Shown here piece after piece: positions 11,071 to 27,093 of a DNA stretch of 34,856 nt (the first letter of the stretch is position 1; every line of letters begins with the position of its first letter). The notes beneath the pieces are model-generated. The model did no database searches. It was given only the letters and a program-made list of their open reading frames with translations, and was not told the DNA's origin. Source of the stretch: Bacteroidota bacterium (lineage in GTDB: Bacteria; Bacteroidota; Bacteroidia; Bacteroidales; B18-G4); assembly GCA_018831055.1 (NCBI GenBank), contig JAHJRE010000204.1, forward strand, positions 1 to 34,856. The letters run 5' to 3'. Both the position numbers and the translations under genes were made by a program.

Positions 11071-11104
11071 GGGACTCCATCCTACGGGATGGAGTCCCTT
11101 TTTT
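11071..11104 (+). terminator. Intrinsic terminator after the YceI gene
   Basis: A 12-bp perfect stem, GGGACTCCATCC (11071-11082) with GGATGGAGTCCC (11087-11098), closes a TACG tetraloop of the stable UNCG class. Six T residues follow (11099-11104). It separates the YceI gene from the secretion operon. Confidence 0.95.
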
Positions 11105-11169: not shown

Positions 11170-11187
11170 ATATGATGTATATCATAT
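11170..11187. promoter_or_regulatory. Inverted repeat upstream of the surface-assembly operon
   Basis: ATATGAT and ATCATAT form a perfect 7-bp inverted repeat around GTAT, 36 bp before the first gene of the operon. It has the size and place of an operator for a dimeric regulator. A weak -7-like TACCTATG lies at 11151-11158. AT-richness makes chance occurrence possible. Confidence 0.3.
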
Positions 11188-11222: not shown

Positions 11223-11819
11223 ATGAAAAGAAAAGCCATCATTCTGATGACCGCCGTTTCTCTATTGGCGGGAAGTTCAACGTGGGCGCAACTTGGCGAC
11301 TACGATGACGAAAATTATTTCTCTCACACAATCAACATTGGTGTTGAGGAAGTTGCACTTCTCGACATCGAACCGGAATTATCCGCAACCCTGACTTTGG
11401 GACCTGAGGCTCCGGAAGAGGCGGGTCTCCCGGTTGTGTTCAACTCCACAGCTACCGACAACAGCCTCTGGCTGAACTACTCCTCCATTATTGGTTCTAC
11501 AACCGAACCCACCCGTAAGGTAACCGTTGCCATTACTACCGGAACCGTGCCTGACGGAATGCTCCTGAAAGTTGCTGCTGCAGCTGATGCCGGTCAAGGT
11601 GACGGCACTGTCGGCACTCCCCAGGGAACGCTTACCTTAAGTTCAACCGCCCAGGATCTGGTCACAGGTATTGGTAGTTGTTACACCGGATCACCGCAAA
11701 ACAACGGCCATAACCTCACTTACACACTGGAGCTAAACTCAGCTTTAGGAAGTTATGCCGAACTGGATTTCGATGCCCAGGTAGCAGTGGAAATAACCTA
11801 CACACTGACGGATAACTAA
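11223..11819 (+). CDS. Secreted beta-rich subunit A of chaperone/usher-like operon
   Basis: A 198-residue exported protein with a signal peptide of about 22 residues (ends STWAQ). No lipobox, T9SS domain or LPXTG is present. It is a clear paralogue of the protein at 15477-16061: both share an ALLDIEP-like start, EAGLPV, LWLNYSS, a V-x-ITTGTVP-like strand, GIGxCxTG, an identical QNNGHNLTY and a C-terminal strand ending ITYTLTDN. The mature protein has a single Cys (SCYTG), so no internal disulfide. Size, beta content and first place in the operon suggest a major surface or fibre subunit handled by the downstream chaperone-like and usher-like proteins. It is not a family I can name. A 130-bp gap with an imperfect hairpin follows, which could allow higher expression than the distal genes. 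Confidence 0.7.
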   Translation: MKRKAIILMTAVSLLAGSSTWAQLGDYDDENYFSHTINIGVEEVALLDIEPELSATLTLGPEAPEEAGLPVVFNSTATDNSLWLNYSSIIGSTTEPTRKVTVAITTGTVPDGMLLKVAAAADAGQGDGTVGTPQGTLTLSSTAQDLVTGIGSCYTGSPQNNGHNLTYTLELNSALGSYAELDFDAQVAVEITYTLTDN

Positions 11820-11862
11820 GATCAGGCCCATAAGTCGAATCCCATAATTGCTTTGTTGCCAA

Positions 11863-11917
11863 GGGTTCTCCTTTCCGCATGTTTGTTTAACGCCTTTCAT
11901 TGCCGGATGAGGAACCC
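11863..11917 (+). other. Imperfect intercistronic hairpin
   Basis: GGGTTC at 11863-11868 can pair with GAACCC at 11912-11917, with further CCG/CGG pairing inside. No T-tract follows. It sits in the only sizeable gap of the operon, between subunit A and the chaperone-like gene, where RNA stem-loops often stabilise the upstream message or lower read-through. Prediction by eye only. Confidence 0.3.
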
Positions 11918-11949
11918 GGAAGCAGGTTGAAAACTTAATATCGATCACC

Positions 11950-12771
11950 ATGAATAATAATACAATGAGTAGTATCGGTCAAAGAATTATCGTTATTCTT
12001 TCACTGATCATGGTTTTTTCAGGAAACTCGTTCGCCAATATTATTGTTTTAAACGGATTAACTCAGGAATTCAACGGTTTACCCGGCGAAACCTACAAAG
12101 GGATAATCGAAGTGAAAAACTTATCGGAGAGCGAGCACGCTGTTAGAATCTACCAGAAAGATTATTTCTATTCTTTTGATGGCATCACCAGTTATAATGA
12201 ACCCGGCCAGCAAGACCGTTCTAATGCATCCTGGATAGTATGCAATCCGGTTTATTTGACCGTTCCGGGAGGTGAGGTGGCCATGATAGAATATGAAGTC
12301 ACCATTCCGGAAGTTGATACCCTTGACGGTTCATACTGGAGCGTGGTAATGGTAGAAGGCATCAAACCTATTGATACATCAAATTACTCCAGGGGTGTGA
12401 ACATTCAAACCCTGATACGGTATGCTGTGCAGGTTGTGACAAATATCGGGGAAACCGGTATCCGCGATCTGCAATTCATCGGTTTTGAAACCAAAGTAGA
12501 CAGTGTAAACAACTACCTCTCGGTAGATATTATTAACACCGGAGAAAGATTGCTCAGACCTGAAATCGGTATTGAGTTATACGATGCGACGGGAGAGATT
12601 AAAGGAATCCTCAAATCGGAAAAGCGCAAAATTTATCCGGGAACCTCTGTACGTGTCATGCTACCTTTGCCCGAGCTTGAAAAAGAAAGCTATTCGGGAA
12701 TTTTGATAGCTGACTGCGGAGGCGACTATGCTTTTGGAACCAATCTGGAATTAAACCTTAATGATCAGTAA
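11950..12771 (+). CDS. Periplasmic two-domain Ig-like chaperone-like protein
   Basis: A 273-residue exported protein with a signal peptide of about 29 residues (ends NSFAN). Domain 1 (about 30-140) has the layout of pilus chaperones and of DUF916/WxL-interacting proteins: FNGLPGETYKGIIEVKNLSE, YQKDYFYSFDG, NASWIVCNPVYLTVPGGE and DGSYWSVVMVEG, that is a conserved Pro-bearing strand, a hydrophobic edge strand and a final strand before the linker. Domain 2 (about 150-270) is another beta-sandwich (YLSVDIINTGERLLRPEIGIELYD). No membrane anchor or barrel is seen, so it should be periplasmic. Its stop overlaps the start of the usher-like gene by 11 bp, suggesting translational coupling. The chaperone role is inferred from fold-like pattern plus context. 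An alternative start is the ATG five codons downstream. Confidence 0.65.
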   Translation: MNNNTMSSIGQRIIVILSLIMVFSGNSFANIIVLNGLTQEFNGLPGETYKGIIEVKNLSESEHAVRIYQKDYFYSFDGITSYNEPGQQDRSNASWIVCNPVYLTVPGGEVAMIEYEVTIPEVDTLDGSYWSVVMVEGIKPIDTSNYSRGVNIQTLIRYAVQVVTNIGETGIRDLQFIGFETKVDSVNNYLSVDIINTGERLLRPEIGIELYDATGEIKGILKSEKRKIYPGTSVRVMLPLPELEKESYSGILIADCGGDYAFGTNLELNLNDQ

Positions 12772-15475
12772 ATGGCATACGGTTATTTTCCTGATAATTT
12801 TTTCAAATGCATTGTTTGCGCAAAACGAACCGGTCAGAATTGAGCTGACCACAGTAAATCATTCTTTGAAACCCGGGGCCATTCAAACACTGGTATTCAA
12901 GGTATTTAACAATACCAACGATACCATTGAAGCCAGGCCCCGGGTTTTATTACCGGATGGATGGAGAATGGTGCTCGGTAATCAACCGCTGACAATCGCA
13001 GGAAAAGGGATCAGGGTGCATCTGATAAATTTCCAGGTGCCGGTGCAGGCACCTGCCGAAATCTATCCTTTTTCCTTTATCCTTTCCGATATCTTCTCCG
13101 GTAATGATATTGCCTCTTTCACCTGCAATTTCGAAATCATGGAATCCATACAATTTGAATTTCAACTCGCCGAATCCCCGGCATATATAATTGCGGGAGA
13201 AGATATTCATACCTCCATGATGCTAAGAAATACGGGTAATAAAATCCAAACCATCTCCTTGTCTCCCTCCAACTGTTTTGTTAAAGGCAGTAACAACATC
13301 ACCCTTGCACCGGGAGAATCATCCATAGTCAGGGTAGAAACCCCAACCAATGCCGATCAGGCTTTTGAATCCAGGGTTAGTTTCAGTGTCAGAGCTTTTA
13401 TCCCGGGATCATTTGAAAAACATTTGTTTCATTATGTAAAACTTATTCCCTCCCGCCAGGCAAAAACGGATATCTACGAACGCTTTCCTGTTAAGTTTGC
13501 CAGCCGGTACATGGGGCGTGGACAAAATGGTGAATATACCTATGGTTACCAGGCTGAGGTTTTTGGCAAGGGCTTTATTGACCATAACGACAAGCACCAG
13601 CTGGAGTTTCTGGCCAGGGGTCCTAATCAATACGGGGCAACAGCCATGGGAATGTATGATGAATATTTTATCGCATACAGCAATCCTCATGCCTACGTTT
13701 TCGTGGGCGATAAAGGTTTCGGACTTACACAACTCACCGAATTTGCCCGTTATGGCCGTGGTGTAGAAGCAAGTGCTACCTACGGCAACTTTAAAATAGG
13801 CACCTACCAGATGAAACCACGCTATTTCGGAGAGATTAAACATGAGATGGCAGCTTATGGGAAATATCGATTTCTTGAGAAAAACGAAACGGGCATACAT
13901 TATGTCATGAAAACTGTTCCCGAAAGCAAGGAAAAAGTTCACCTTGCCAGTATCACCACCAATCTTCAAATAGTAAAAAATACCCTCTTAGAAGCAGAAA
14001 TTGCCACAGGAAATCATGGAAACAAAAAAGGAATGGGATACAGGGTCTTTATGCAATCATCCATAAACCGGCTGAATATCTCAGCATTTTTTCTGTACAG
14101 TAACAAAAATTTCCCAGGATTTTACCAAAATGCACGTTTTTATAATGGTACCATAAATTACAATTTTTCAAGGAGGTTGTCGGCCGGCGTGAGTTTCCGC
14201 CAGGATTTCAAAAATGCTCAATTGGATACACTCTTTGGTACAGCGCCGTTTACACAGAGTTATCAGGCCAGGACAAGCATAATGCTCGCAAAAAAGATGT
14301 TTTTGCGTCTGGCAGCAGGTAGAACAACCAAGGAAGACAGAATGCCGCTTCATAAATTCCATTATACCCACGATTTCCTGAAAATCAATTATTCGCATAA
14401 CCTGGAAAAACTGGGATATACACTGTCATGGGAGTACGGTAAGGTCGACAATCTTTTGGAAAAGTCGGGAATAACCGAAAAAAACACCATGAAGGGCTCC
14501 GGGAAATTCAGTTACCAGCCCTCCCCTATGCAAAGCTTCGATGTCTTTGCTTCCTGGTCGAACATGGAATCGTTTTTGTTCGGACAGCGTCAGGATTGGA
14601 CATTCGGTCTTTCCGCCAGGAAACAGTTTACAAAAAACCTGACTACCAGTATACAATACCAAAATAACTTTTCACAGGAAGAATATTACAGGAATCGTAA
14701 TCTGTTTGAAGTAAACGTTAATTATCGTTTTTTCAGAGATCACAATATTACCGCGATCTGCTCCTATACATTGCAGGAAAAGAAACTGAGCAACCCGGAT
14801 TATTCCTTCTCTCTGTCCTATTCCTGTAATATTAACGTACCCATCAGGAAAACCGGTGACATAGGATCTTTACGCGGAAATATTGCAAATCTGGGAGTAA
14901 AGACCACAGAGGGTATTATCCTCTATCTGAATGGTCAGGCAACTTCCACCGATGAATATGGTAACTTCACCTTTAACAATGTTCCCAAAGGAGAGTATTT
15001 TTTATTGCTGGACAAGTCTTCCATTGAAATGAGGGATATACCCAATGTGAATTTTCCTTTACCGGTTGAGATTCTTGCGGACCAGGAGACAGTGCTTGCT
15101 TTTGGTATTACCCGCGCTGTTGTAGTAAAAGGAAGGCTTAATCTTGAAATCCAGGAAAGCAAGGTTAAACTTCTGGAAGAAAAAGAAACCAAGCCTGTAC
15201 AGTTGATTCTGGAAATCCGTAATGGTGAAGAAAGTATAAAGATACTCAATGAAACAGACGGATCTTTTACATTTCCATTTCTGCGCCCCGGTGATTGGAC
15301 GTTAAAGATTTACCGTAATGGACTGGGACCTGAGTACATCATTGAAAAAACGGAGTTCAGCCTTGATCTGCAACCGGGCGATAACCGGCAGATTGAAATC
15401 AATATCAGGAAGAAAGAGAGAAAACTGATAATGAAAAACAATAACATACAGATCTCTACAAAAAAGAAGAACTGA
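12761..15475 (+). CDS. Usher-like outer-membrane beta-barrel protein
   Basis: A 904-residue exported protein; signal peptide about 21 residues (ends NALFAQ). Residues about 22-235 are two Ig-like domains (VFKVFNNTNDTIEARPRVLLPDGWR and MMLRNTGNKIQTISLSPSN, NEW3-like). Residues about 243-695 show alternating aromatic strands of a large barrel (KFASRYMGRGQ, YGYQAEVFGKGF, LNISAFFLYSNKNF, SLSYSCNIN). Residues 701-785 (RGNIANLGVKTTEGIILYLNG, TDEYGNFTFNNVPKGEYFLLLD) and 786-885 are periplasmic plug- or CTD-type beta domains like those at the end of ushers. Length and order match FimD/PapC (N-domain, barrel, two C-domains), but I see no FimD signature, so homology is unproven. It ends in a Lys/Asn-rich tail. 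The next gene starts 1 bp after its stop. Alternative: a surface-protein exporter of another type. Confidence 0.65.
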   Translation: MISKWHTVIFLIIFSNALFAQNEPVRIELTTVNHSLKPGAIQTLVFKVFNNTNDTIEARPRVLLPDGWRMVLGNQPLTIAGKGIRVHLINFQVPVQAPAEIYPFSFILSDIFSGNDIASFTCNFEIMESIQFEFQLAESPAYIIAGEDIHTSMMLRNTGNKIQTISLSPSNCFVKGSNNITLAPGESSIVRVETPTNADQAFESRVSFSVRAFIPGSFEKHLFHYVKLIPSRQAKTDIYERFPVKFASRYMGRGQNGEYTYGYQAEVFGKGFIDHNDKHQLEFLARGPNQYGATAMGMYDEYFIAYSNPHAYVFVGDKGFGLTQLTEFARYGRGVEASATYGNFKIGTYQMKPRYFGEIKHEMAAYGKYRFLEKNETGIHYVMKTVPESKEKVHLASITTNLQIVKNTLLEAEIATGNHGNKKGMGYRVFMQSSINRLNISAFFLYSNKNFPGFYQNARFYNGTINYNFSRRLSAGVSFRQDFKNAQLDTLFGTAPFTQSYQARTSIMLAKKMFLRLAAGRTTKEDRMPLHKFHYTHDFLKINYSHNLEKLGYTLSWEYGKVDNLLEKSGITEKNTMKGSGKFSYQPSPMQSFDVFASWSNMESFLFGQRQDWTFGLSARKQFTKNLTTSIQYQNNFSQEEYYRNRNLFEVNVNYRFFRDHNITAICSYTLQEKKLSNPDYSFSLSYSCNINVPIRKTGDIGSLRGNIANLGVKTTEGIILYLNGQATSTDEYGNFTFNNVPKGEYFLLLDKSSIEMRDIPNVNFPLPVEILADQETVLAFGITRAVVVKGRLNLEIQESKVKLLEEKETKPVQLILEIRNGEESIKILNETDGSFTFPFLRPGDWTLKIYRNGLGPEYIIEKTEFSLDLQPGDNRQIEINIRKKERKLIMKNNNIQISTKKKN

Positions 15476-15476
15476 C

Positions 15477-16061
15477 ATGATTAAATTCAGAGCTACAATA
15501 CTATTCATTCCTGGTTTGATGATGACCCTGTTTACCCTGGCATTATGCTTTCCTGCATCCATTATGGCACAGCAACAGGGTTATGGGGATATTTCGTTTG
15601 GGATACCTTCAATTGCCATGCTGGATCTTGAACCAACAGCTTTATCGAATATTGTTCTTGTAGTAATGGCACCAACGGAAGCCGGCTTGCCCGTGTCCAC
15701 GCAATCGGCTTCAAATAGTCAGCTCTGGTTGAACTACAGCTCTTCGTTGCCTACAGGAGGGCTTTCCAGGTCAATCATGGTACAGATTACGGCAGGAACA
15801 CTTCCGCAAGGTCTTGAACTCAACCTTAATACCGCTCCTTTTGCAGGCAGTGGATCCGGTACCTTCGGTTCAACCTCCGGGGAAATAGCCGTCAACTATT
15901 CACCGCAGCGCATTATTTCAGGAATAGGTAGATGTTTCACAGGCAACGGACAAAACAACGGCCATAATCTAACGTATTCACTGTCAGTTATTGATTTCAG
16001 TAAACTTGATCTGGAGTCTTCTACTGCAATACAAATCACCTATACCATTACCGATGATTAG
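15477..16061 (+). CDS. Secreted beta-rich subunit B, paralogue of subunit A
   Basis: A 194-residue exported protein with a long signal peptide (about 31 residues, ends ASIMAQ). Its mature part aligns along its whole length with subunit A (11223-11819): SIAMLDLEPTA, TEAGLPV, QLWLNYSS, MVQITAGTLPQGL, GSGTFGSTSGEI, GIGRCFTG, QNNGHNLTY and the final IQITYTITDD. A single Cys is conserved in the mature chain. I infer a minor or alternative structural subunit. The ATG follows the usher stop after 1 bp and the gene overlaps the next by 8 bp, so it is surely in the same transcript. No named family recognised. Confidence 0.7.
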   Translation: MIKFRATILFIPGLMMTLFTLALCFPASIMAQQQGYGDISFGIPSIAMLDLEPTALSNIVLVVMAPTEAGLPVSTQSASNSQLWLNYSSSLPTGGLSRSIMVQITAGTLPQGLELNLNTAPFAGSGSGTFGSTSGEIAVNYSPQRIISGIGRCFTGNGQNNGHNLTYSLSVIDFSKLDLESSTAIQITYTITDD

Positions 16062-16560
16062 TTCAAAAAAAATAAAAGTCACTCTTTTATGGGCACTGAC
16101 CATCGTTACCTTATCCGTTCAAGGGCAAGGTTTGGTAATCAGCGTAAACGGGATTCCAGCGTTTCCTCCTATAACCATTACCGAGGCAGGGGAAGATTTT
16201 AACGGAACCTATAACAGTGTGAGCGGCAACCAGATCACTGTGGCAACCCATTCCTTTATGCATAATCTGATAGGTAATTTTATGTGGAAAGTTACCGTAC
16301 ATAAATCCGATAACAATTGGGATTCCTCCCTGGGACTGGAAACCATCCGTACGGGTACCGGTACCAGAGGATCCATCTTTTTTAACAGCATTACGGGCGG
16401 CACCAATTATCAGACTATAACCAATTTACCTGCCGATTTTTTCTGGGGAACGGGAAGGTGGTACGATATCCCGGTTGCCTACAGGTTGAATGGGGTTTCC
16501 GTTCTGCTTCCGGCTGATCAATACGAAACCACAGTTATTTTTACCATTACCGACATGTAA
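16054..16560 (+). CDS. Small secreted protein C, terminal gene of usher-like operon
   Basis: A 168-residue exported protein. The ATG at 16054 lies inside the end of subunit B (ATGATTAG overlap) and opens a signal peptide of about 24 residues (KKIKVTLLWALTIVTLSVQGQ). An in-frame ATG at 15991 is rejected because it would place the signal peptide internally. The mature protein is beta-rich (LVISVNGIPAFPPITI, FMWKVTVHKSDNNWDSSLGLE, RWYDIPVAYRLNGVSVLLP) and ends in TVIFTITDM, like the ends of subunits A and B. The rest does not align with them by eye. It could be a tip adhesin, an adaptor or a distant subunit. It has no cysteine. A strong terminator follows. Confidence 0.65.
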   Translation: MISSKKIKVTLLWALTIVTLSVQGQGLVISVNGIPAFPPITITEAGEDFNGTYNSVSGNQITVATHSFMHNLIGNFMWKVTVHKSDNNWDSSLGLETIRTGTGTRGSIFFNSITGGTNYQTITNLPADFFWGTGRWYDIPVAYRLNGVSVLLPADQYETTVIFTITDM

Positions 16561-16586: not shown

Positions 16587-16623
16587 GGGCCCCGCCTTTT
16601 AGCGTTTTGGTGGGGCCCTTTTT
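16587..16623 (+). terminator. Intrinsic terminator ending the usher-like operon
   Basis: A 10-bp GC-rich stem (GGGCCCCGCC at 16587-16596 with GGTGGGGCCC at 16609-16618, one G-U pair) has a 12-nt loop and is followed by five T residues (16619-16623). It isolates the operon from the glycoside hydrolase gene. Confidence 0.95.
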
Positions 16624-16691: not shown

Positions 16692-16699
16692 TAGATTTG
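16692..16699 (+). promoter_or_regulatory. Candidate -7 box for the glycoside hydrolase gene
   Basis: TAGATTTG is an exact TAnnTTTG match 18 bp before the ATG at 16718. It overlaps the first codon of a longer reading frame starting at 16697, which supports the later start. No good -33 TTG is seen at 19-21 bp. Confidence 0.4.
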
Positions 16700-16717
16700 T
16701 CTGAAATATTTGGGATA

Positions 16718-19700
16718 ATGGTTATAAAAAAAGTTATTGCAGCATTATGGCTGGTTTTAATCCTTTTCAGGATGCAAGGGCAGGATGAAAAAACCCTTGT
16801 TGGTTTTCTCTTCCTGAACCCTTCAGGAACTCAAAAAATGGAAGAAATGGCTGCTATGGCCGCATTATCGCGTGGTGAGATTTCTTACAATACACTTAGC
16901 CTGGCTACGATAAGCAAGGATCCATCTATTCTTAACAATATTAAGGTATTATGGGTACACCGGCCCGATTCCATGCCCTTCACAGCTAAGGAAAAAGCAA
17001 AGGACTTCCTGGATATACTCACGAATTACATCAACTCCGGAGGTAGATGCCTCCTGACCCTGGATGCGGTCAAATACCTGAATATCCTGAATTTTGAATC
17101 CATGCCTCTTGAATCCTGGAGCAAAGAAGCATCCGACAACGGTTACGGGCGTATGCTGGGAATCCACGGTTATGGAGAACATCCGGTGTTTCTTGGCCTG
17201 AACGGGGGTTCCTATATAAATAAACCAAAAGAAAACATCCGTGTAAGGGTGAATGGTTTCAGAGGTGATGTGCTACCTGCCGGTGGTAAGGTGATCGGGG
17301 TAGACTGGGATTACATTTTTGTAAGAGAGGATAAAAAGATTCTGCTGGAATACGATTCAGGACAGGGAAAAGTAATAGCCTGCGGGGCTTACATGATATT
17401 TTCCCAGGATAATGTTAATCAACTTCACCTCGGTCTTTTCCTGAAGAATATCCTGGAATACCTTGCCGGCAATGATAATCCTGAAGGCAATGCTTACTGG
17501 AGTTATGAAAAACAGAGGATAGAGAAAATGGAATTAACTCCCTTTGCCCGTCCGGTAAATATGAACCCACCGGCAGTCTGGCCTCCATTCCGGGAGAAAC
17601 TGGTAATGAAAAACCCGGCAGGTGGAGATCATTTCTGGGATGTGGCCGGCCGGCGCATGTTTTTAATGGGCAGGGAAAAGTCAGGAATCGAGGAAGTCTG
17701 GGCCCACCCAATGATGGCACTGCGAGACTATGAAGCAGGGATAGTCCGGAAGGGAGAAACCGAAATTACATGGCTGGGGAGCTTGATCCCAGCGGTTCAG
17801 GTAAGGCCGGAATGCTTCACAAGAATATATGAGACTGATGGCATCATAATTAAGGAATTCGTCGCAGTGACTCCTGACAAACCGGAAGCATTAATACACT
17901 ATGAGTTCAGCGGAGACCAGCCTGTTCAACTTGTTTACCGTTTCCATTCAAATTTCCGGCTTATGTGGCCATACTCTGAAAAGGTGATACCTGCAATACA
18001 ATATGCCTACGATACTTTGCTGAATGCATTCCTGCTTACCGATCCATATCGGGAGTATTCCGTTATGCTTGGCAGTAACCTGCCTTCATCTCACCGGGAA
18101 GCCGGTCCTTACACCCCTCTAAACTCCTCTCCTGCCGACACTTTCCTCTTTTCAGCCGAGGCAGTAGTGCCCTTAGATGGCCATCAGGCTCTTGACCTTA
18201 TCCTGGTAGCAGGGAAACTCAGTCCTGACGCTGCCCGCTTAGCATACAGCGAAGCTGTGATCTATCCGCAACGTATTATAAATATGGCCAGGATACGCAG
18301 CGATGTCATTGCCAATAACTTCCTTACCCTTGTATCTCCCGATACTGTTTTCAATCAGGGGTTTGCCTGGGCAGTATCGGCGACCGACAAGCTGTTTGTG
18401 GAAACGCCAGGGCTCGGCTTATCGCTGGTTGCCGGGTATTCAACAACGGCAAGAGGCTGGGACGGTGGCCATAAAGTCAATGGTCGTCCGGGTTACGCCT
18501 GGTATTTTGGCCGCGACGGAGCCTGGAGCGCATTTGCTGCTCTGGACTATGGCGATTTTGAAGGCGTAAGAAATATTCTGATACTTTTCCAGGATTTCCA
18601 GGATCTGAACGGGAAGATATTCCATGAACTGAGTACCTCGGGATTCGTGCATTACGATGCTGCAGATGCCACACCTCTCTATGTTATCCTGGCAGGTAAA
18701 TATTTCCGGCATACAGGTGATTATAAGTTCATTCGCGATTCCTGGGAAAATATACAAAAAGCCATAGACTACTGTTATTCAACCGATACCGATGGTGACC
18801 TGCTTATTGAAAACACCAATGTAGGACATGGTTGGGTGGAAGGAGGGCATCTGTTTGGCTCCCACTCTTCCTTGTACCTCACAGCCTGCTGGGCGGAAGC
18901 TCTGGATAACGCCGCCGGTATGGCTGCCTTTACCGGAAAGAAAGACCTTGCCCGTAAATACCGTGATGATGCACGAATTGTAAAGGATAAACTGAATACC
19001 CTTCTGTGGAACGAAAACGAAAACTTTTACTACCAGGGGATCATGCAGGACGGCAGTTTCCATACAGCCCTTTCCATAATGCCGGGTATTCCTTTGCTTT
19101 TTGGACAAGCTGACACAGGCAGGGCCCTGCCCATCCTGGAAAAATTTGCTGCCGACGATTACAGCAGCGACTGGGGTGTTCGGATAACCGGGAAAAGTAG
19201 CCCGCATTTCAATCCCGGCGGCTATCACAGCGGTAGCGTCTGGCCTTTATACACGGGTTGGGTTGCCCTGGCTGAATATCGCTATGCAAGGCCCCTGCAA
19301 GCTTTCACACATGTAATGAACAACCTGAAAGTTTATCGCGACTGGTCGCTGGGTTATATCGAGGAAGTTTTGCATGGAAGCCAATATAAGCCCTTCGGGG
19401 TTTGTCCCCACCAGGCCTGGTCGGAAACCATGGTGATACAGCCCGTGGTGGAAGGAATGCTGGGATTCCGTTGTGATGTGATGAAAAACAAATGTTCGTT
19501 GCAACCCAAGCTGCCTCCCGGCTGGAATCATTTAAAAGTCAGAAACCTGCGTATGGGATCTCGCCGGATACATATGGAGTTTGAACGGACCGATGATGAA
19601 TACCGGTATATCCTGACCAACACATCCGACAAACCCGTACGAATGGATTTTTCTCCTTTTCTTTTACCGGGCACTTTTGTGGGAGACGTGAAAATCAACG

Positions 19701-20086
19701 GAGTTACCGTGCCCTGGACATATGAAGACAGCGATCAGGGGATGGCCCTGAAAATACCTTTTTTCTTAAGTGATACAGATACCGTATCCATTGCCGGCTA
19801 TGGAGGTATCTCAGTTTTGCCGCAGGAATATGATCCGATGCCGGGAGACAGCTCATCCGGTGTGCGAGTCCTGAATTCCGCTGTTGTTGACGGGAAGTAT
19901 CGTATCCAATTGGAAGGCCCTGCAGGAAAACAAGGAAAAATAAGGCTGATTCTGCTTGATTATAAAGTAGAGACAATCACGGGAGGAACCCTTGAGAACA
20001 TCAAAGATGGCATTCACACTGTTTCTGTCTTGTTCCCGGAAGGTGAGGGATATTGCGGGAAAGAGGTGGTTGTTTGGTATAGATAA
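16718..20086 (+). CDS. Exported GDE-like glycoside hydrolase with N-terminal GATase-like domain
   Basis: A large exported enzyme of 1122 residues; signal peptide about residues 1-22 (ends RMQGQ). The first 250 residues look like a glutamine-amidotransferase-like or ThuA-like alpha/beta fold (VGFLFLNPSGTQKMEE, VLWVHRPDS, YINSGGRCLLTLDA, GQGKVIACGAYMIF). A beta-sandwich follows. An (alpha/alpha)6 catalytic region then resembles amylo-alpha-1,6-glucosidase/GH15-type enzymes (COG3408): GHGWVEGGHLFGSHSSLYL, LWNENENFYYQG, YHSGSVWPLYTGWVALAEY and CPHQAWSETMVIQPVVEGMLG. A C-terminal beta domain of about 150 residues closes it. It should hydrolyse an alpha-glucan or related glycoside outside the cytoplasm; substrate and catalytic acids are not assigned. 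I chose the ATG at 16718 over the one at 16697 because the signal peptide starts there. The permease gene follows after 14 bp. Confidence 0.8.
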   Translation: MVIKKVIAALWLVLILFRMQGQDEKTLVGFLFLNPSGTQKMEEMAAMAALSRGEISYNTLSLATISKDPSILNNIKVLWVHRPDSMPFTAKEKAKDFLDILTNYINSGGRCLLTLDAVKYLNILNFESMPLESWSKEASDNGYGRMLGIHGYGEHPVFLGLNGGSYINKPKENIRVRVNGFRGDVLPAGGKVIGVDWDYIFVREDKKILLEYDSGQGKVIACGAYMIFSQDNVNQLHLGLFLKNILEYLAGNDNPEGNAYWSYEKQRIEKMELTPFARPVNMNPPAVWPPFREKLVMKNPAGGDHFWDVAGRRMFLMGREKSGIEEVWAHPMMALRDYEAGIVRKGETEITWLGSLIPAVQVRPECFTRIYETDGIIIKEFVAVTPDKPEALIHYEFSGDQPVQLVYRFHSNFRLMWPYSEKVIPAIQYAYDTLLNAFLLTDPYREYSVMLGSNLPSSHREAGPYTPLNSSPADTFLFSAEAVVPLDGHQALDLILVAGKLSPDAARLAYSEAVIYPQRIINMARIRSDVIANNFLTLVSPDTVFNQGFAWAVSATDKLFVETPGLGLSLVAGYSTTARGWDGGHKVNGRPGYAWYFGRDGAWSAFAALDYGDFEGVRNILILFQDFQDLNGKIFHELSTSGFVHYDAADATPLYVILAGKYFRHTGDYKFIRDSWENIQKAIDYCYSTDTDGDLLIENTNVGHGWVEGGHLFGSHSSLYLTACWAEALDNAAGMAAFTGKKDLARKYRDDARIVKDKLNTLLWNENENFYYQGIMQDGSFHTALSIMPGIPLLFGQADTGRALPILEKFAADDYSSDWGVRITGKSSPHFNPGGYHSGSVWPLYTGWVALAEYRYARPLQAFTHVMNNLKVYRDWSLGYIEEVLHGSQYKPFGVCPHQAWSETMVIQPVVEGMLGFRCDVMKNKCSLQPKLPPGWNHLKVRNLRMGSRRIHMEFERTDDEYRYILTNTSDKPVRMDFSPFLLPGTFVGDVKINGVTVPWTYEDSDQGMALKIPFFLSDTDTVSIAGYGGISVLPQEYDPMPGDSSSGVRVLNSAVVDGKYRIQLEGPAGKQGKIRLILLDYKVETITGGTLENIKDGIHTVSVLFPEGEGYCGKEVVVWYR

Positions 20087-25077: not shown

Positions 25078-27093
25078 ATGAAGAAAGCAATCCTTTTAAC
25101 CCCATTTATTCTGATGTTCCTGTTTGCCGCATCTCAAGTTCCGGTTGACCATAATCAGCACTTCATGGAAATCAGGAAAGCATTGCAGGTTGAAGGGAGC
25201 AGGTTGCAGGTTAAAGGGAGCGACCTGCACATTCCCAGTTCCCCAGTTCCCAGCACCCCAATTCCCAGCTCCCAGCCCCCCAGCCCCCAGCCCCCCAGTT
25301 CCCTCTCCCCTTATTTTTCCCTCCAGAAAACCCTTTTATCCATCCCGGAAGTTGCTTCACCGGGCAGAAATCGTTCCGGGGATACCTTGTACATTGGGAT
25401 CACATCAGGAGAAGTATATCAAATCACCGGAACATGGTTTTTTCCCGGAACAATAGTGTTATTGAATAATGGTATATTACGGTTTCGCCATGCCGAGGCC
25501 ACAATCCTGGGGAACATCATCGCTTTTGGAAGTGGTCGTATGGAAGCGGATTCTTCGGTATTGCATTTTCCCCAGGAATTCTTTTATCAGCGTTCATTGT
25601 TTTTCCTGGAAAACTCGGCTGCCACTATTTGCAACACTACCCTCGATTTTGGCGGGCTTGTGCATAATATAGCCGTTGCCCAGAGTGCTTCGATGCTGTT
25701 CGAAAACGTCACCAAACCTGATTTTTCCACGGTTGGCTTATACAAGGGAGGTGAAATTGTAATAGATGGTATTGACCTTGCCGGGGAATTCATTATGCAG
25801 GACAATGGCCGTCTTAGCATCAGTAATGCAGAAACAGTATTGGTTTGGCACCAGTTTGATGATCATGCAGAAATTGACTTTAGTTTTCCGGATGGAATGC
25901 AGGTAGGCGCCTATGTTTTTGATACACTTCAGAGCGGAGTTCAGGGAGTGGATTATCAAGTCCTGCTCAGCAACTGTGCTGATGTTATGTGGGGGCTGAT
26001 GCCTTCTAAGGGATCGGATGTGACCATAAGCCAATCAGACTTGCGTACAATAGGCCTTTGGTTTGTTGATGATGACGAGAATGAGGTTTCGGGTTTTGTA
26101 AACAATTCCTTTTATCAGGATTTTACAGCACCATTATCAGACAGGAACCTGCACCTGCAGGATTGCAATGTGCAAACATGGAGTATTTATGCCTTTGACC
26201 GGGCTGTTCTGGATATCACCGGTTGTATGCTTGGCGAAGTCGGTACCATGGGTAGTTCTTCGGTAAATGGCCAGACTTTTACCGTTGATGGGACGGGTGG
26301 TTATGTGTTTGTAAGCGACACGAGCCTGTTTATTTCAGTCTTTGCACCATTTATTTCATCTCTCAGAACGAGTGGGAATGCCGTAGCGCTTTACGCATAC
26401 TCCAGCCTTGTTAACGGAACCATAACCGCGCTGAATAATTCGATACTGATTCTGGTGCAATCGTCATTCCCCGGGGTACCGGAACCAAGAGACCACGCAG
26501 TGATCTGGAACACGGCCATCACCGGACCGGGCAAAGCAATTATCAATAGTACGGTTGATATTACCGGTTCTGTATGGATTGATAAAGGAATTGGTTCCCT
26601 GTTGATGGATTTCAGCCATTATGATGTGTATTACAATACCGCCACTGATACTTCCTGGAAACTTATTTCAGGTTACAACACCAATGAAATCAGGAATGGC
26701 ATTTTAGCAAGCTGGAATACATCCGGAATGGAAACGGGGTCTTATCAGATAAAAACCGATCTGTTTGATGACCAGGGGTTTTATGTCAGTTGCACTGCAC
26801 CTGTTGTCTTATTACCTGAATACATGGGTACCGGAGAGATCAGTGAAGATGACCTTATCCTTTTTCCCAATCCGGTAAATGACAGGCTTAGTATTCATTT
26901 CAGAAAGCCGGTTGATGATGGAGCTATGATATATATAACGGATGCCGGAGGTAAGATGGTGAAGTACGTAGGAAAATATGACAGGCAAACTACTATCATT
27001 ATTGAATGTGGTGATTTATCGAAGGGCATTTATTATGTTTTGATCGATCTCGGGCATAAAAAGATAATCAGAAAGTTTATTTTTGCCGGGTAA
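25078..27093 (+). CDS. T9SS-exported protein with beta-helix-like body
   Basis: A 671-residue exported protein. Signal peptide about residues 1-19 (ends LFAASQ). A low-complexity Pro/Ser linker (about 37-80) is encoded by a repeat insertion. Residues about 95-580 carry repeated short strands with turns (ILRFRHAEATILGNIIAFGSGRMEA, AATICNTTLDFGG, SALFENV-type rungs, NSILILVQSSF), suggesting a right-handed beta-helix like pectate-lyase-fold proteins. The last 75 residues (LFPNPVNDRLSIHF, then IYITDAGGKMV and GIYYVLIDLGHKKIIRKFIFAG) are a type A T9SS sorting domain, so the protein is secreted or anchored to the surface. No catalytic residues identified. The MFS gene follows 9 bp downstream. Confidence 0.85.
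   Translation: MKKAILLTPFILMFLFAASQVPVDHNQHFMEIRKALQVEGSRLQVKGSDLHIPSSPVPSTPIPSSQPPSPQPPSSLSPYFSLQKTLLSIPEVASPGRNRSGDTLYIGITSGEVYQITGTWFFPGTIVLLNNGILRFRHAEATILGNIIAFGSGRMEADSSVLHFPQEFFYQRSLFFLENSAATICNTTLDFGGLVHNIAVAQSASMLFENVTKPDFSTVGLYKGGEIVIDGIDLAGEFIMQDNGRLSISNAETVLVWHQFDDHAEIDFSFPDGMQVGAYVFDTLQSGVQGVDYQVLLSNCADVMWGLMPSKGSDVTISQSDLRTIGLWFVDDDENEVSGFVNNSFYQDFTAPLSDRNLHLQDCNVQTWSIYAFDRAVLDITGCMLGEVGTMGSSSVNGQTFTVDGTGGYVFVSDTSLFISVFAPFISSLRTSGNAVALYAYSSLVNGTITALNNSILILVQSSFPGVPEPRDHAVIWNTAITGPGKAIINSTVDITGSVWIDKGIGSLLMDFSHYDVYYNTATDTSWKLISGYNTNEIRNGILASWNTSGMETGSYQIKTDLFDDQGFYVSCTAPVVLLPEYMGTGEISEDDLILFPNPVNDRLSIHFRKPVDDGAMIYITDAGGKMVKYVGKYDRQTTIIIECGDLSKGIYYVLIDLGHKKIIRKFIFAG
25186..25313. 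repeat. In-frame repeat insertion within the T9SS gene
   Basis: Six 7-bp units at 25186-25227 (CAGGTTG, AAGGGAG, CAGGTTG, CAGGTTA, AAGGGAG, CGACCTG) are exactly 42 bp, hence 14 codons. They are followed by a C-rich array of CCAGTTC / CCAGCCC units with occasional 1-bp gains up to about 25313. The first part is the same CAGGTTR sequence as the intergenic arrays. Translation gives a Pro/Ser-rich linker between the signal peptide and the folded domain, where an insertion is tolerable. Confidence 0.85.

Follow-up and report, generated by a model that had tools for sequence, protein, structure and literature searches.

Results

A compact operon of five exported proteins

The sequence analysed here, which we call the window, is a 34,856-nucleotide contig (JAHJRE010000204.1) of a bacterium of the phylum Bacteroidota, from an assembly of 4.19 Mb. 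It contains five open reading frames on one strand, each opening, by reading of the sequence, with a signal-peptide-like stretch (Table 1). The chaperone-like and 904-residue genes overlap by 11 bp (12761-12771) and the genes for subunit B and protein C by 8 bp (16054-16061), while a single base pair (15476) separates the 904-residue gene from that of subunit B. These coordinates confirm a preliminary description of the locus as five exported one-strand proteins with such overlaps and gap. That description also had the operon bounded by two strong terminators. Both hairpins are present, and the one at the 3' end, with 9 of 10 pairs, a 12-nt loop and a T5 run, is the weaker of the two.

In the interval from the upstream terminator to the gene for subunit A lies the palindrome ATATGATGTATATCATAT, which has no other close match within the window and is a possible operator. 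The start of protein C is most plausibly the ATG at 16054, giving 168 residues, rather than the upstream TTG at 15991. The genes around the operon are ordinary, with YceI-like and tRNA_anti-like genes upstream and a glycoside hydrolase (16697-20086) and a TauE-type permease downstream (Pfam), and none of these four neighbors is repeated in sister loci. Elsewhere in the window, positions 25078-27093 encode a 671-residue protein that carries a sorting domain for type IX secretion (Por_Secre_tail).

No family in Pfam or NCBIfam covers A, B, C or the 273-residue protein, in agreement with the initial statement that no described system with these protein families was known to the reader. No description of the operon was found in the literature searched, whose coverage excluded most subscription papers and preprints.

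Table 1. Features of the operon and its flanks (positions in the window)
Feature	Coordinates	Strand	Remarks
Terminator-like hairpin upstream of operon	11071..11104	+	perfect 12-bp stem (11071-11098), then T6
Palindrome ATATGATGTATATCATAT	11170..11187		7-bp arms; possible operator
Subunit A, 198 aa, exported	11223..11819	+	41-member subunit family; 40% identical to B
Candidate donor strand, N-terminal segment of mature A (...SHTINIGVEEVALLDIEP)	11292..11375	+	alternating hydrophobic residues; putative role
Chaperone-like protein, 273 aa, exported	11950..12771	+	two Ig-like domains by WxLIP homology
Candidate donor (G1) strand LIRYAVQVVTNI	12412..12447	+	putative; placed by alignment with FimC/PapD
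Usher-like outer-membrane protein, 904 aa	12761..15475	+	family across phylum; without FimD similarity
Two N-terminal Ig-like domains, residues 23-231	12827..13453	+	model block pLDDT mostly 64-86
Predicted beta-barrel region, residues 235-700	13463..14860	+	~28 amphipathic strand candidates (rough count), no plug recognized
Two C-terminal transthyretin/CarboxypepD_reg-like domains, residues 701-890	14861..15430	+	Pfam; NOMO2 match
Subunit B, 194 aa, exported	15477..16061	+	paralogue of A
Candidate donor strand, N-terminal segment of mature B (...GDISFGIPSIAMLDLEP)	15573..15638	+	alternating hydrophobic residues
Protein C, 168 aa, exported	16054..16560	+	divergent subunit relative
Terminator-like hairpin, operon end	16587..16623	+	9/10 pairs, 12-nt loop (16587-16618), then T5

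Occurrence and operon types

The preliminary description proposed a search for the same gene order in other Bacteroidota, and the order proved to be kept across the phylum. The arrangement subunit-chaperone-barrel-subunit-(C) is repeated in over 20 genomes, more than chance would give, with protein identities that lie mostly at 20-45%; these genomes belong to Bacteroidales, to other orders of the class and to other classes of the phylum. Its distribution is wide but patchy. A barrel protein of full or nearly full length occurs in 14 of 393 genomes of the order. A sample of 395 genomes from the phylum gave 37 with a match (E up to 1e-6). Apart from the window, about 13 of them are matched over approximately half of the profile or more, and many of the remaining matches comprise only the C-terminal domains. 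The chaperone is absent from all eight genomes of the same genus or family that were searched. No relatives were found in scans of viral contigs, in plasmids searched with the window barrel protein, or in phages searched with a Flavobacteria-side homologue.

Two operon types can be distinguished. Type I has the order subunit-chaperone-barrel-subunit-C and is found in the window, at loci L018, L067 (with a second upstream subunit), L069, L070 and L071, and in other orders of the class (L117, L118, L119 and L121). Type II (L019, L020, L062, L063, which is a truncated contig, L064, L065, L066 and L068) consists of one to four subunits, the chaperone, the barrel protein, a short subunit and a paralogue of GldM of about 535 residues. 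At the loci of other classes (L120, L122-L126), the chaperone mostly lies directly before the barrel protein, with subunit-like genes nearby; at L122 the ORF screen picked up no chaperone. In a tree of barrel proteins, the type II sequences fall together in a clade (100/100) that lies within type I, and those from other classes form a clade of their own (100/100); the deeper branching is uncertain owing to several long branches. Two further features of type II loci were observed: a LuxR-type response-regulator-like gene lies directly upstream of the operon at L064, L065, L066, L068 and L020, and the usher-like gene at L068:8017-10742 (G239) is split over two frames, by frameshift or assembly error.

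GldM is the motor shaft of type IX secretion. All eight type II operons are closed by a dedicated GldM paralogue (seven by motif screen, L020 by direct reading). In one operon only, at L066 (3022-5513, G359), the paralogue is followed by a GldL-like gene (PF22827). A search of 12 genomes with the GldM N-terminal domain found two GldMs in each of six type II genomes, one in the operon and one elsewhere, and one in each of the five other type I genomes. In the window genome the single GldM lies on a different contig (G000:C218:21773-22363) and is broken into two parts, which may reflect a frameshift or a misassembly. The GldMs encoded by the operons group as a single clade (100/99). Such a dedicated gene, set apart from a second GldM of the same genome, speaks for a reading of the operon as a specialized accessory of type IX secretion or gliding, in which the barrel protein would work with GldL/GldM to secrete or move surface proteins. 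We consider this explanation improbable: neither the window nor any other type I locus has an operon GldM, and none of the five proteins matches type IX sorting-domain or core-component families. The nesting of the type II usher genes, as one clade, among type I also speaks against it and makes the motor part look like a later addition.

The chaperone-like protein is related to WxLIP and, probably and more remotely, to PapD

On its own, the 273-residue protein of the window has no Pfam match, including PapD_N. A profile of 27 homologues, however, detected EfmWxLIP1 of E. faecium over both domains (hmmsearch, E 8e-7). Compared with seven WxLIPs, the chaperone family gave 98.5% over 228 columns (hhalign), and profile-profile comparison with eight E. 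coli PapD-type chaperones gave 83.6%. The 13 core chaperones alone reached WxLIP at 96.3% (reversed, 2.1%) but the E. coli chaperones at only 4.2%, whereas the more distant cousin chaperones reached WxLIP at 98.1% and the E. coli PapD-type set at 92.0% (reversed control, 0.5%). Reversed-sequence controls were below 4% in all of the chaperone comparisons. Since the core misses the E. coli set and the cousins reach both, the link to PapD is probably real but runs via intermediates.

On these profile comparisons, the chaperone is a homologue of WxLIP (DUF916-DUF3324) along its length and probably remoter kin of PapD, and its likeness to known chaperones is one of divergent homology, not convergence. 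The first reading of the locus had recognized a two-domain Ig-like protein, which is borne out by the WxLIP homology over both Ig domains, and its hint at DUF916 was a good one. The comparison with PapD that it suggested gave high scores with the family profile and the cousins and a low one with the core alone. It had left open whether the system is divergent from chaperone/usher pathways or convergent with them; on the chaperone side, the former stands and the latter does not.

Arg157 and the motif RY[AG][IV] are kept without exception in the 22 core homologues compared. The motif should open the G1 strand of the chaperone, judging from the alignment: Arg157 falls at a place like that of PapD Lys112, the basic residue opening the PapD G1 strand, and P120, D123, Y129 and W130 parallel the classical LPxDRESLFW stretch before G1. 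A strand of WxLIP is predicted to complete the WxL sandwich (PMC10599100), and the title of a structure entry released in 2026 (9i25) is that of WxLIP bound to long WxL. The 273-residue protein ends after domain 2, without the transmembrane helix found at the C-terminus of WxLIP.

At the cousin loci, the chaperone gene is nearly always followed by one for an exported protein of about 360-400 residues (L021, L022, L025, L026, L027, L028, L029, L031 and L073), often near a usher cousin of about 1000 residues and one or two small exported proteins.

The 904-residue protein has an usher-like layout and no detectable usher homology

The protein was initially described as a barrel with N- and C-terminal domains and without FimD/PapC signatures; the usher-like layout and the lack of usher-family similarity are borne out. 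Within the two N-terminal Ig-like domains (residues 23-231), residues 23-127 resemble NEW3-type Ig domains (Z 12). The two domains are followed by a predicted barrel region of about 470 residues of amphipathic strands, whose rough count of about 28 strand candidates compares with 28-32 for FimD counted likewise, plug included. The two C-terminal beta domains give the only Pfam/NCBIfam matches, which are to transthyretin-like domains, and residues 704-854 match NOMO2 (E 3e-8). An AlphaFold2 model from a 3-row alignment has an overall pLDDT of 42, and its barrel is not reliable.

The usher family was not detected by any comparison. The 904-residue protein has no PF00577 match in Pfam and no recognized plug domain, PF00577 scores above cut-off in none of 60 relatives, and profile-profile comparison of the family with five E. 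coli ushers, including the FimD comparison proposed at the outset, gave 0.5%. The stretch GDxxYxLTxLTExxRxGRGV resembles the FimD stretch GDxYTxGDIFDSxxFRG by eye, but profile comparison does not bear this equivalence out. A TonB-dependent receptor was also rejected, there being no TonB barrel or plug Pfam match at E up to 1. The proteins of about 1000 residues at cousin loci are homologous to the family (99.8% over 817 columns), which makes the family a large one. The 904-residue protein, usher-like in both layout and length, appears to be an outer-membrane-type component.

Carboxypeptidase-regulatory-like domains also occur in transporters. Together with a barrel that lacks an usher signature and the glycoside hydrolase gene downstream (16697-20086), they could indicate a porin operon for export or uptake (e.g., of polysaccharide), with the small beta-proteins as periplasmic or surface accessories. 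The downstream neighbors are not kept in sister loci, TonB receptor domains are missing, and a chaperone of the WxLIP/PapD kind with paralogous subunits is atypical of porins; we regard this as the least probable of the explanations considered, and very improbable in itself.

Subunits A, B and C

The identity of 40% between A and B upholds the earlier view of B as a paralogue of A. Protein C, noted before simply as a small protein of the set, is indeed present, and hhalign with the A/B subunits (94.8% over 151 columns, part of the alignment being signal peptide) refines it to a third, divergent subunit relative. On these comparisons, all three subunits are related to one another. They have no convincing match to any Pfam family, and profile comparison detected no relation of the subunits to classical pilins.

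Three candidate identities were considered and rejected. The subunits resemble WxL in their C-terminal ending, but profile comparison with WxL gave 1.4%. A 79% match to DUF4402 spans just 24 columns, all signal peptide. Type V pilins do not fit, as A, B and C lack a lipobox cysteine near the start and a FimA/Mfa Pfam match.

The N-terminal segments of many mature A and B subunits carry a pattern of alternating hydrophobic residues. With a hydrophobic residue followed by Pro as the anchor, 25 of 49 subunits fitted; position 0 is hydrophobic by construction, with positions -2 and -4 free. In these 25, positions -4/-2 are hydrophobic in 96-100% and positions -3/-1 in 4-8%. The usher-adjacent subunit of type II operons is short by about 18 N-terminal residues in 8 of 8 cases (33-35 vs 44-68 residues). 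The alternating N-termini and the shortened terminal subunit fit what would be expected of donor strands and of a strand-less tip subunit. The segment could also be the ordinary first strand of the subunit itself. An AlphaFold2 model of subunit B (6-row alignment, pLDDT 67) shows a beta-sandwich that starts at about residue 50; the pLDDT is about 40-60 in the N-terminal segment vs about 70-90 over most of residues 81-194. Structure matches of this model, obtained with Foldseek and VIA, are weak and mixed; they include two pilins, EcpA (Z 6.3) and DaaE (Z 4.8), which score level with sandwich proteins of no relation to them; the absence of a family from these matches is no proof.

The closest relative of the chaperone, WxLIP, is a permanent partner of WxL (PMC10599100), and the N-terminal domains of the 904-residue protein are also WxLIP-like in fold (Z 11.6, tied with others). 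The operon might serve a display complex in the style of WxL/WxLIP, with the 273-residue protein as a permanent partner of the subunits and the 904-residue barrel as surface anchor, forming no polymer and exchanging no strands. This appears rather unlikely to us. The 273-residue protein lacks the transmembrane helix of WxLIP, sister loci have one chaperone gene for up to four upstream and one downstream subunit genes, and the conserved N-terminal segments vary by subunit position.

Discussion

A putative assembly pathway for surface fibers

The interpretation that we favor, as the probable one though with considerable reservation, is a chaperone/usher-like assembly pathway for a surface fiber or coat. 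The preliminary description had likewise read the locus as a chaperone/usher-like surface assembly operon. This is sustained by the gene set, the homology of the chaperone, the paralogy of the subunits and the layout of the large protein; a relation to the usher family is not. Since the usher-family test failed, we do not file the operon as a member of the classical pathways.

Secretion, chaperone action, strand exchange and polymerization are inferred here. In the proposed pathway, A, B and C would be exported by Sec and bound in the periplasm by the 273-residue chaperone with its two Ig domains. The G1-like strand of this chaperone (LIRYAVQVVT), which contains Arg157, would pair with the C-terminal strand of the subunit, an arrangement like that of the WxLIP-WxL and PapD-pilin complexes. 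The 904-residue protein would take up the chaperone-subunit complex by its N-terminal Ig domains, hand it on to its own C-terminal domains and pass it through the barrel. In a donor-strand exchange, the next subunit would then displace the chaperone strand with its alternating hydrophobic N-terminus, yielding a polymer. A, encoded by the first gene, may be the major subunit, with B and C as minor, tip or base subunits.

A wider and more tentative proposal, which we think possible but doubtful, is that these operons represent a separate strand-donating branch across Bacteroidota. It would have a chaperone linking WxLIP and PapD, an usher outside the known family and one lineage that couples assembly to a proton-driven motor via its own GldM (once GldL), unlike any known chaperone/usher system.

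Fimbrial assembly in Bacteroidota is described as poorly known (PMC5789003). A working counterpart of chaperone/usher pathways across Bacteroidota would, if true, add a surface-fiber route to the phylum. The chaperone bridges WxLIP and PapD, families that have been studied apart, and this opens the origin of strand-donating chaperones to test. The GldM-bearing sister lineage poses the question of whether an usher-like system can run on a proton-powered motor.

Comparison with known systems

Classical and archaic chaperone-usher systems have the same gene set and sizes: subunits, a two-domain Ig chaperone of about 240-270 residues and an outer-membrane protein of about 850-900 residues with N- and C-terminal periplasmic domains. 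In those systems the subunits are Ig folds short of their last strand, which a donor strand supplies, and the usher is a 24-strand barrel with a plug. The operon shares with classical systems a basic residue starting a G1-like strand, alternating subunit N-termini and, probably, remote chaperone homology. It differs in that its usher has no detectable relation to PF00577 and no recognized plug, and in that its subunits are unrelated by sequence. Chaperone/usher pathways have been reported in Proteobacteria, Cyanobacteria and Deinococcus-Thermus, a range that Bacteroidota lie outside (PMC4654587).

With the WxLIP/WxL system of Gram-positive bacteria, the operon shares a chaperone homologous over both Ig domains. 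Unlike that system, it occurs in Gram-negative bacteria and has a barrel protein, its chaperone has no transmembrane helix and its subunits show no profile relation to WxL (1.4%).

Bacteroidota also contain DUF4402 loci, of which L095 and L096 (G005, G013) have a PapD-like chaperone and an usher-like protein. Their chaperones are related to those studied here (cousins, 96.9%; core, 57.7%), and the C-terminal domains of their large proteins align with the 904-residue family (79.8%), but the barrel regions do not. Their subunits are DUF4402 proteins, with which A and B align in the signal peptide only. The DUF4402 loci look like a second, different chaperone/usher-like system in Bacteroidota, of which one copy occurs in a genome of the family to which the window belongs. 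DUF4402 proteins were seen beside a PapD-like chaperone or an usher-like protein (up to 997 residues, with a plug-like stretch by eye) at L095, L096 and L019:1824-5040.

Type V (FimA/Mfa1) pili are surface fibers of Bacteroidota assembled by strand exchange. Their precursors are lipoproteins of other Pfam families, whereas the operon described here has substrates with signal peptides, a chaperone and a barrel protein.
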